A DNA stretch of 64,000 nt from Burkholderiales bacterium RIFCSPLOWO2_12_FULL_65_40. Lineage in GTDB: Bacteria; Pseudomonadota; Gammaproteobacteria; Burkholderiales; Burkholderiaceae_C. The notes beneath the pieces were generated by a model. The model did no database searches. It was not told the origin of the DNA and saw nothing but the letters and a program-made list of their open reading frames with translations. This document shows, in pieces, positions 61,725-64,000 of the stretch. Each line of letters opens with the position of its first letter. Position 1 is the first letter of the stretch. A program made the translations under genes and the position numbers. The stretch covers positions 60,285 to 124,284 of the forward strand of contig MESL01000031.1 in assembly GCA_001770955.1 (NCBI GenBank), in the 5' to 3' direction.

Positions 61725-62375
61725 ATGCAGAAATTCACCCTCCACCAAGGCCTCGTGGCTCCCATGGACCGCGAGAACGTCGACACCGACGCCATCATCC
61801 CCAAGCAGTTCCTCAAGTCGATCAAGAAGACCGGCTTTGGCGTGAACCTGTTTGACGAATGGCGCTACCTGGACCACGGCGAGCCGGGGCAAGACCCGGC
61901 CAGCCGCAAGCCCAACCCCGACTTTGTGCTGAACCAGCCGCGCTACCGTGGCGCCTCCATCCTGCTGGCGCGCAAGAACTTTGGCTGCGGATCGAGCCGC
62001 GAGCACGCGCCCTGGGCGCTGGACCAGTACGGCTTTCGCGCCGTCATCGCGCCCAGCTTTGCCGACATCTTCTTCAACAACTGCTTCAAGAACGGACTGC
62101 TGCCCATCGTGCTGCCCGAGGCCACGATAGCCCAGTTGTTCGACGAAGTGGCGGCGTTCCCCGGCTACCAGCTCACCATCGACCTGGAACGCCAGGTGAT
62201 CGTGTGCCCGCAGGGCGAGGAGATCCCGTTCGACGTGGTGCCCTTCCGCAAGTACTGCCTGCTCAACGGCTTCGACGACATCGGGCTGACCTTGCGCCAG
62301 AAAGACAAGATCGCCGCCTTTGAGGCCCAGCGCCTGGCCACCAAGCCCTGGCTGGCCCACACCATGGTCGCCTGA
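61725..62375 (+). CDS. leuD: 3-isopropylmalate dehydratase small subunit
   Basis: A 216-residue swivel subunit that pairs with Leu[31 protein letters not shown] is the N-terminal signature, and [42 protein letters not shown] the core substrate loop. Full length. It lies 12 bp after the entericidin gene; the space to leuB is 70 bp with a palindromic repeat. Confidence 0.97.
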
Positions 62376-62383
62376 AATATTCA

Positions 62384-62434
62384 AACAAATTGGCCTCTAG
62401 CGCTTGCTGAACAAGCGCCAGAAGCTATCAAAAC
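62384..62434. repeat. AAATTGGCC..AGCGCTTG repeat between leuD and leuB
   Basis: AAATTGGCCTCTAGCGCTTG and CAAGCGCCAGAAGCTATC around a CTGAA loop: AGCGCTTG/CAAGCGC forms the stem. It is within the leuD-leuB spacer and may reduce or process the leuB transcript. Confidence 0.75.
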
Positions 62435-62445
62435 AAGAGTCAACA

Positions 62446-63516
62446 ATGAAAATTGCAGTTCTGCCGGGTGACGGCATCGGTACCGAAATCGTCGCCGAGG
62501 CCGTCAAGGTGCTCAAGACGCTCGATCTGAAATTCGAGATGGAGTCTGCCCTGGTCGGCGGCGCCGCCTACGAGGCCCATGGGCACCCCCTGCCCGAATC
62601 CACCCTGAAGCTCGCCATGGATGCCGACGCCGTGCTGTTCGGCGCCGTGGGCGACTGGAAATACGACAAGTTGGAGCGCCCGCTGCGCCCTGAGCAGGCC
62701 ATTCTGGGCCTGCGCAAGAACATGGGGCTGTTTGCCAACTTCCGCCCCGCCATCTGCTACGAGCAACTGGTGGGCGCATCCAGCCTCAAGCCCGAGCTGA
62801 TTGCGGGCCTCGACATCCTCATCATCCGTGAGCTGACCGGCGACATCTATTTCGGCCAGCCGCGCGGCCGCCGCGTGGCCACCGACGGCCACTTCCCCGG
62901 CGCCGAGGAAGCGTATGACACCATGCGCTACAGCAAGCCCGAGATCGAACGCATCGCCCACGTCGCCTTCCAGGCCGCGCGCAAGCGCAGCAAGAAGGTC
63001 ACCAGCGTGGACAAGGCCAACGTGCTGGAAACCTTCCAGTTCTGGAAGGACGTGGTCACCGAGGTGCACCAGCAGTACCCCGACGTGGAACTGCAGCACA
63101 TGTACGTGGACAACGCCGCCATGCAGCTCGTCAAGGCGCCCAAGGCGTTCGACGTGGTGGTCACCGGCAACATGTTCGGCGACATCCTGAGCGACGAGGC
63201 CTCCATGCTCACCGGCTCGATCGGCATGCTGCCCTCGGCCAGCCTAAACAGCAAGGGCCAGGGCCTGTACGAACCGAGCCACGGCAGCGCCCCCGACATC
63301 GCCGGCAAGGGCATCGCGAACCCGCTGGCCACCATCCTCTCGGCCGCGATGATGCTGCGCTTCTCGCTGAACCAGGAAGCAGCCGCCCAGCGCATCGAGG
63401 CCGCCGTGCAGAAGGTGCTGGCCCAGGGCCTGCGCACGCCCGACATCTGGAGCGAAGGCACCACCAAGGTGGGCACGGCGCAGATGGGGGATGCGGTAGT
63501 GAAGGCGCTGGGATAA
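62446..63516 (+). CDS. leuB: 3-isopropylmalate dehydrogenase
   Basis: A 356-residue NAD-dependent decarboxylating dehydrogenase that makes 2-oxo-4-methylvalerate precursor. [22 protein letters not shown] is the start, [14 protein letters not shown] carries substrate residues, and [27 protein letters not shown] the metal site. I use the ATG at 62446 (canonical MKIAVLPGD); an upstream ATG at 62404 lies inside the palindromic repeat and is not used. Confidence 0.97.
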
Positions 63517-63544
63517 GCCGGTACAGCCTGCACCAGGCATGTGG

Positions 63545-63570
63545 AAAGGGCGGCACAGGGCCGCCCTTTT
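63545..63570 (+). terminator. Rho-independent terminator after leuB
   Basis: AAAGGGCGG-CACAGGG-CCGCCCTTTT: 6-bp GC stem with A/T flanks, 29 bp after leuB. The 327-bp leuB-asd gap otherwise holds the leader ORF and stem-loops listed next. Confidence 0.88.
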
Positions 63571-63647
63571 GCATGCAGGGCACAGGCGCCGCAGGGCACA
63601 GTGCCCGTAAGCAGGCGTCAAGCAGCCATCCGCTACAATCCGGAACT

Positions 63648-63749
63648 ATGTTTGTCGCCCGCCCGTTCGCCCTGAACACCGCATCCGCCGCCCAGGCCGG
63701 TGCAGCCGCGCGCGCAATCACCACCAAAACCACGACCATTAAGGGCTGA
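63648..63749 (+). CDS. Threonine/isoleucine-rich leader peptide of asd (putative)
   Basis: A 33-codon ORF, MFVARPFALNTASAAQAG.., whose last residues are ITTKTTTIKG: five Thr and two Ile in eight consecutive codons (63717-63740), just before a TGA stop at 63747. This composition is like the thr operon leader peptide, which senses Thr and Ile. A TACAAT box at 63634-63639 is so close to the ATG that an mRNA from it would be nearly leaderless, and no Shine-Dalgarno is visible. Downstream are competing stem-loops. asd, a shared Thr/Met/Lys/Ile pathway gene, starts 94 bp after. The peptide is proposed from sequence alone. Confidence 0.6.
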   Translation: MFVARPFALNTASAAQAGAAARAITTKTTTIKG

Positions 63750-63750
63750 T

Positions 63751-63808
63751 CCAGTCTGGTTCGTCGTGCGCCCTCCCTGGCCAGACGAGCCGGGGCAGAA
63801 CAGTCTGG
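63751..63808 (+). promoter_or_regulatory. Attenuator-like competing stem-loops before asd
   Basis: GTCTGG occurs at 63754-63759 and 63803-63808, each able to pair with the single CCAGAC at 63781-63786, so the pairings exclude each other. The stem CTGGTTCGTC / GACGAGCCGG (63757-63766 with 63784-63793, two G-U) extends the upstream choice. A ribosome at the leader stop (63747) would cover the first copy. A U-rich GTTTCTTACTTT follows. Either termination or control of the asd ribosome-binding site is possible; neither was computed. Confidence 0.5.
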
Positions 63809-63843
63809 TCTGGCACTGTTTCTTACTTTGAAAGGGCGTTGAA

Positions 63844-64000
63844 ATGAGCAAGTTGGTAGGTTTGGTCGGCTGGCGCGGCATGGTCGGCTCGGTCCTGATG
63901 GACCGCATGGTGCAGGAAAAGGACTTCGATCTGATCGAACCCCTGTTCTTCTCCACCTCGAACGCAGGCGGCAAGGCCCCCGCACAGGCCCGGAACGAAA
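63844..64000 (+). CDS. asd: Aspartate-semialdehyde dehydrogenase (5' part)
   Basis: The first 52 codons of Asd; the window ends within it. MSKLVGLVGWRGMVGSVLMDRMVQEKDF is the NADP-binding N-terminus of the gammaproteobacterial-type enzyme (GWRGMVGS), followed by FFSTSNAGGKAP. It makes aspartate semialdehyde, the branch metabolite to homoserine (hom in this window) and to lysine. GAAAGGG lies 8-14 bases before the ATG. Confidence 0.95.
   Translation, partial: MSKLVGLVGWRGMVGSVLMDRMVQEKDFDLIEPLFFSTSNAGGKAPAQARNE

Follow-up and report, generated by a model that had tools for sequence, protein, structure and literature searches.

In the window, the 64,000-nucleotide stretch of DNA analysed here, asd is very probably (about 0.9) controlled by a leader-peptide attenuator. 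The product of asd, aspartate-semialdehyde dehydrogenase, is the common step to lysine, threonine, isoleucine and methionine. The leader is a 33-codon ORF on the + strand (63648-63749) that reads MFVARPFALNTASAAQAGAAARAITTKTTTIKG up to its stop codon. A sequence-only reading of this DNA had proposed such an ORF upstream of asd as a sensor of Thr and Ile. The ORF is present, with the correction that 63640, given as its beginning, is 8 nt too early. The count of five Thr and two Ile in eight codons is exact for ITTKTTTI, which also contains one Lys. Thr and Ile are retained as residues presumably sensed, and Lys, which was missing, has to be added because the tails of the family read Thr/Lys/Ile. 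The features of the locus are as follows:

62446..63516, + strand: leuB, here ending in VVKALG and a stop (in 60 related loci the C-terminus of LeuB is the leader tail)
63634..63639, + strand: -10 promoter element TACAAT, 8 nt before the leader ATG, identified by the recurrence of the hexamer in stand-alone leaders
63648..63749, + strand: leader peptide ORF, probably leaderless, from the ORF reading, the -10 spacing and the rarity of an SD-like core
63717..63746, + strand: putative sensing tail ITTKTTTIKG, with Thr, Lys and Ile codons, from the enrichment of T/K/I/M at positions -2 to -9
63756..63793, + strand: hairpin A, from comparative pairing; 5' arm 63756-63765, 3' arm 63784-63793, inner pairs 63767-63772 with 63779-63783
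63768..63774, + strand: 5' strand of helix X, GCGCCCT, part of the inner strand of A, from duplex energy and alignment
63775..63795, + strand: hairpin B, from comparative pairing; CCCTGG (63775-63780) with CCGGGG (63790-63795), using the 3' arm of A
63799..63829, + strand: terminator-like hairpin T, from the U-run and paired cells; AACAGT (63799-63804) with ACTGTT (63815-63820), plus a U-rich stretch
63833..63839, + strand: 3' strand of helix X, AGGGCGT, overlapping the asd Shine-Dalgarno (SD) region, from mean duplex energy against shuffled sequence
63844..64000, + strand: asd, the putatively regulated gene, which leaves the window (376 aa read on the same contig)

The folding energy of the region is unexceptional, with a z of -0.25 for the whole and -1.21 after the stop. 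An Rfam search of 62000-64000 returned six matches, all unrelated and below the gathering threshold (lowest E 0.54). With neither unusual stability nor a qualifying Rfam family to go on, the argument for the element is a comparative one. A plain consensus promoter and terminator scan of the region found nothing, probably for want of a -35 element and because of a bulge in T.

An asd start and a candidate ORF were present in 245 of 311 related loci; a pattern scan covered at least 120 loci, 75 with an asd start and candidate ORF and 45 without. The leader was picked as the ORF with the top Thr/Lys/Ile score 30-200 nt before asd. Excluding L270, L167 and L121, whose tail scores were low, and removing duplicates left 212 loci, composed of 152 with a stand-alone leader and 60 in which the leader tail is fused to LeuB. 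One locus counted as stand-alone, L170, lies on a cut contig and looks fused.

Comparison of these loci brings out the tail and its reading frame. Positions -2 to -9 are T, K, I or M in 92.9% of cases in the stand-alone class and 90% in the fused class, against 12.2% and 18% for the residues before (212 loci); because the loci were found by similarity to the tail and hairpin, these percentages are conditioned on how loci and ORFs were picked. Lys alone accounts for 21% of the stand-alone and 27% of the fused tail. Thr is found in all 152 stand-alone tails, Lys in 151, Ile in 148 and Met in 3, and the 60 fused tails all possess Thr and Lys, with Ile in 57 and Met in 9. The tail residues swap places while their class is kept, as in TKTTTIKG, TKTITKG, KKTTKG and GKTITKS. 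The last residue is Gly or Ser in 96% of the stand-alone and 60/60 of the fused tails, and Lys occupies position -2 in 80% and 93%, respectively. Synonymous change is evident in the stand-alone tails, where entropy is 0.18, 0.76 and 1.13 bits at codon positions 1, 2 and 3 and the third position varies most. The conserved short ORF that had been suggested as a check is found, its tail kept despite synonymous drift. Sequence conservation extends to the beginning of the stand-alone leader (63648-63683 in the window, MFAARPF onwards).

The leader occurs in two architectures. When every in-frame ATG giving 15-70 codons was tried, a TACAAT-like hexamer was found 6-10 nt (mostly 8) before such an ATG in 148 of the 152 stand-alone leaders. 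The same test was positive for 197 of 9306 background ATGs (2.1%) and for 0 of 212 asd starts. No conserved -35 was detected in 147 aligned stand-alone leaders, and an SD-like core within 12 nt before the leader ATG is present in only 5/147. The -10 spacing, a product of the same comparison, and the scarcity of an SD-like core point to a stand-alone leader that is probably leaderless and has its own promoter.

The leuB of stand-alone loci has endings like VVKALG before its stop. In the 60 fused loci, the tail continues LeuB itself (MGDAVVAAITTKTIKG before the stop, and the like). Between the leuB stop and asd lie a median of 94 nt in the 60 fused loci versus 325 nt in the 110 stand-alone loci with leuB in reach. 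The fused frame was read back over at most 274 residues (a 900-base cut) and not over the whole of LeuB, and a LeuB search matched 60/60. On a quick LeuB tree of 156 rows, the distribution of the two forms takes 8 changes, of which well-supported branches require at least 2; about half of the inner branches are open, and the tree does not give the direction of change.

Behind the leader stop, the comparison points to competing RNA structures. The long hairpin A is present in 211/212 loci and starts mostly 4-5 nt past the stop. Pairing in A was counted in 118 of the 152 stand-alone loci, picked by spacing and length: 96.8% of cells are paired, and of 20 cells with changes on both sides 17 belong to one pair. 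Hairpin B pairs the loop of A with the 3' arm of A, with 95.5% of cells paired and 17 both-side changes, 16 in one pair. The main covarying pairs of A and B involve the same base of the shared 3' arm. Where this base is A instead of G, a U stands on both the 5' arm and the loop in 20/24 loci. The covarying stems that had been proposed as a check are therefore found in the stand-alone class, for both A and B, with the covariation coming mainly from one pair each, and this one-pair covariation may represent few events. In permuted-partner tests, A, B and T each beat permuted partners in the stand-alone loci; 211/212 loci of both classes were anchored for A, and B was assessed in the 119 of 152 stand-alone loci with a U-run and usable segments. 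A and B, which use the same 3' arm, are mutually exclusive folds. In fused loci the advantage of A's cells over permutation is not clear, with 33 and 89 of 500 permutations equalling them, whereas the energy of its base arms does exceed permutation (2/300 as good).

The pairing scheme offered by the sequence-only reading, two copies of GTCTGG competing for one CCAGAC, fits only in part even in the window. CCAGAC does occur once, at 63781-63786, but three copies of GTCTGG lie between the leader stop and asd, at 63754, 63803 and 63808, the last two overlapping by one base. The first copy was correctly placed 5 nt past the stop, as it begins at the fifth base after it. Across the stand-alone loci, a post-stop GTCTGG, a CCAGAC and a further GTCTGG are found together in only 5/152, and the scheme was rejected as the conserved mechanism; what is conserved instead is A versus B, plus X. 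The broader idea of a post-stop helix that a terminating ribosome could cover finds support in hairpin A.

Helix X is the predicted duplex between the inner strand of A and the asd SD region. Its mean duplex energy is -10.65 kcal/mol over 211 loci versus -5.46 after shuffling. X-type energies of -3.9 to -7.2 were obtained in these loci for the DNA preceding leuB, leuD, leuC and the second gene downstream of asd; the exception is the first gene after asd, with a similar -10.57 (20 loci). Matched strands outperform permuted partners in the fused loci (1/300 as good) and in both classes together (0/300). X hardly varies among the stand-alone loci, where 38/300 permutations are as good and the advantage of matched strands is not clear. 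The 3' strand of X in some fused loci lies upstream of the SD or is replaced. Seven fused-type loci without a U-run (L159, L154, L169, L171, L163, L142 and L161) carry long alternative pairings upstream of the asd SD, GGACCCC with GGGGTCC, or ACAAACCC or CCAAACCC with its complement, which are perhaps a remodelled X.

Hairpin T has 92.2% of cells paired, and a U-run is present in 136/152 stand-alone and 36/59 fused loci. Its energy is weak, with a median of -6.0 kcal/mol in the stand-alone and -3.2 in the fused class, and so is its covariation, since sliding by one column yields more both-side changes. An antiterminator formed by the 3' arm of A and the left half of T was also considered, in the 119 of 152 stand-alone loci with a U-run and usable segments. 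The real pairing averages -6.57 kcal/mol versus -7.26 for permuted partners, and 400/400 permutations were as good or better. As this pairing is worse than permuted, a classical terminator/antiterminator pair is not the conserved element, and the antiterminator was rejected.

Folding with a modelled ribosome edge shows how these structures may be exchanged. In the 152 stand-alone loci, moving the edge from stop+0 to stop+10 changes the probability of the upper part of A from 0.65 to 0.11, that of B from 0.27 to 0.78 and that of X from 0.32 to 0.82, and SD freedom declines from 0.30, itself only a modest average for the open state, to 0.10. Between the same edges, X rises by more than 0.2 in 96/152 loci and falls in 1, and SD freedom drops by more than 0.2 in 69/152 and rises in 5. 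Edges that correspond to a stall at Thr -4 or Ile -3 leave A at 0.65-0.76, and a stall on the last Lys already drops A to 0.35 (stop+7). The 59 fused loci move in the same direction, with A going from 0.21 to 0.00, B from 0.74 to 0.93, X from 0.70 to 0.89 and SD freedom from 0.39 to 0.34; at equilibrium A reaches only 0.21 in this class even without a ribosome at the stop, and SD access barely moves. Before the asd start is transcribed, the base pairs of A form with probabilities of 0.93-0.96 (stand-alone) and 0.87-0.98 (fused) unless a ribosome is at the stop. On average, a terminating ribosome thus shifts A to B plus X, which favours translational control. The window's own copy shows no switch in the equilibrium model. 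X stands at 0.90-1.00 with edges from stop-2 to stop+7, at 0.63 at stop+10 and at 0.99 at stop+13, and A is favoured (0.93) only with the tail free. It is apparently this copy that accounts for the one stand-alone locus with a falling X between stop+0 and stop+10.

From these results we infer ribosome stalling, a direction of control and action at the level of translation, and our credence leans modestly towards this ribosome-controlled A/B/X scheme reading aspartate-family amino acids. Transcription would start at or beside the leader ATG, judging from the -10 box, and the leaderless peptide would be translated. When Thr-, Lys- or Ile-tRNA is short, the ribosome would stall in the tail, leaving the post-stop RNA free to form hairpin A. 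Hairpin A would keep its inner strand off the asd start, and asd would be translated. When the amino acids are sufficient, the ribosome would reach the stop and cover about the next 10 nt, where the 5' arm of A begins. The 3' arm of A would then pair as B, and the freed GCGCCC(U) would join AGGGCG(U) at the asd SD as helix X, so that asd translation falls. In the fused branch, a ribosome finishing LeuB would play the same role. This direction, with stalling turning asd on through A and termination turning it off through B and X, fits a biosynthetic gene.

The scheme has to be weighed against a classical transcription attenuator, in which the position of the ribosome decides whether T and its U-run form. 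The E. coli thr and his leaders work in this way, and both the leader layout and the stop-to-A spacing found here resemble known attenuators. T is conserved as a pairing, and most stand-alone loci carry the U-run. However, the conserved competitor of A is B and not T, the arm-T pairing is worse than permuted, and 23/59 fused loci have no U-run, with T weak in both classes and its own covariation weak. Moreover, masking by a ribosome at the stop lowers T from 0.84 to 0.34, the wrong direction for a classical terminator. We consider transcription attenuation rather unlikely, and T is, at a guess, a pause site or a weak or constant partial terminator. The classic amino-acid attenuator layout put forward by the sequence-only reading is supported as a leader-peptide attenuator of asd; its proposed pairs are not, nor is a conserved terminator/antiterminator pair.

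The Gly or Ser end and the Lys at -2 would also suit an arrest peptide, in which a Lys-Gly/Ser-stop end stalls the ribosome at the stop codon for a metabolite and not for codon starvation. TnaC is such an arrest peptide and stalls the ribosome at the stop codon in response to a metabolite. Yet Thr, Lys and Ile are permuted within the tail, as codon counting would give, and a ribosome held at the stop corresponds to the closed state in the family-average model, which makes an arrest peptide quite improbable. Slightly less probable still is a non-regulatory reading, in which the tail belongs to LeuB for reasons of the protein, and the ORF of the stand-alone class is a relic or part of a small RNA. 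It would accommodate loci such as L358, L351, L363 and L364, in which the tail decays while hairpin-like sequence stays, but it does not account for the recurrence of tail, hairpin and position before asd in both architectures, the competing conserved hairpins or the -10 box at the ATG of nearly all stand-alone leaders.

Among known systems, the attenuator belongs with ribosome-controlled attenuation; what would be new is a leader that is leaderless, a tail reading several amino acids and the form that uses the tail of LeuB. The thr operon of E. coli has thrL, a short leader peptide dense in Thr and Ile codons with alternative RNA structures behind it. The asd leader is similarly short and dense in Thr and Ile, is followed by alternative folds and serves the aspartate-family pathway. 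It differs in also reading Lys and at times Met, in its target asd, in the competition of A, B and X near the asd ribosome-binding site, and in being probably leaderless and in part the tail of LeuB. In the E. coli rph-pyrE attenuator, the end of a full-length upstream gene acts as the leader, sensing pyrimidine supply and not codons. A frameshift in E. coli rph is reported to lower pyrE. The end of an upstream gene would serve as leader in the fused loci too, and the LeuB tail differs in carrying amino-acid codons.

The LEU element before actinobacterial leuA, as described in PMC1262725, has a run of leucine codons that itself pairs with the SD box, and also a pseudoknot. Measured against that description, here a post-stop strand would pair with the SD, and there is competition between two hairpins. 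In mycobacteria, leaderless polycysteine ORFs are reported to sense an amino acid by their codons (Canestrari 2020, as cited in PMC9031893). The asd leader is like them as a leaderless short ORF that would sense by codons; theirs reads cysteine and belongs to mycobacteria. No description of an asd attenuator was found among the matches listed in the open-licence PMC literature, a scope outside which most subscription papers lie.

A fuller picture, held tentatively and at a shade under even credence, is that a single attenuator adds up the supply of Thr, Lys, Ile and sometimes Met at the enzyme they share, controls the initiation of translation and comes in two interchangeable versions. One form would be a leaderless mini-gene with its own promoter, and the other the C-terminal tail of LeuB as leader, tying the leucine operon to aspartate-family control. 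A leader reading several aspartate-family amino acids at once would be a simple sensor of the whole branch. If true, the use of an enzyme C-terminus as a sensing leader would illustrate how attenuators emerge from coding genes or become part of them, and it predicts that some protein tails exist for an RNA switch.

The attenuator system is common in a large family, and the leader is no chance occurrence. A covariance model of the tail and post-stop hairpin (84 positions, built from 25 loci) was searched through whole genomes and matches 298 of 399 genomes sampled from one Burkholderiales family, the window's own genome included, in 118 of 141 genera. Carriers include Acidovorax, Comamonas, Hydrogenophaga, Limnohabitans, Rhodoferax, Brachymonas, Malikia, Ramlibacter, Caenimonas, Methylibium and Roseateles, though names of metagenome bins may be wrong. 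The 211-base region itself matches 32/60 genomes, own included, a few by short matches only. In an order-wide sample, the model matches 10/250 genomes, seven in the family (own included) and three weakly and without asd. Just downstream of the match, asd is present in 170 of 191 model-matched loci, some of which are repeats of one place. The 21/191 loci without asd downstream are all weak matches, with E of 3e-4 or worse; three lie outside the family.

Twenty genomes without a match were re-examined via asd, 17 of the 101 lacking a model match and three of the same genus lacking a region match. An asd start with upstream DNA was obtained in 17/20; by eye, six of these are decayed or partial and the other eleven lack a leader, which means that some members of the family do not carry the element. 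The sequence-only reading had named relatives lacking the short ORF as evidence against it, and here most sampled family genomes have the leader and part of the family is without it. The loci with a decayed or partial tail or hairpin are L351, L358, L360, L363, L364 and L365, of which L360 is the most intact; hairpin-like sequence is kept and the Thr/Lys/Ile codons are partly lost, or the reverse.

Among 28 asd loci from other families, examined with a similar ORF picker, 27 have at most three Thr/Lys/Ile/Met among the eight tail codons. The exception is L327, from another Burkholderiales family (f14), whose leader before asd ends in RTTTIITKTVMKG. Two congeners, L343 and L344, have STTIITKKTKTTVLV and SITTIITKKTKTIILV before asd, and the RNA behind these three leaders is unlike that in the window's family. 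These Thr/Ile/Lys-rich leaders are either an ancient relative of the element or of independent origin.

In L121, an ORF that by eye resembles an acetyltransferase lies between the place of the model match and asd, and the element may now precede a different first gene; the simple hairpin pattern did not recover the hairpin there. The identity of Asd to the window's Asd looks bimodal, even within a genus and behind the same leader (96.5% in L008, 69.1% in L009), possibly through replacement of the gene in place.
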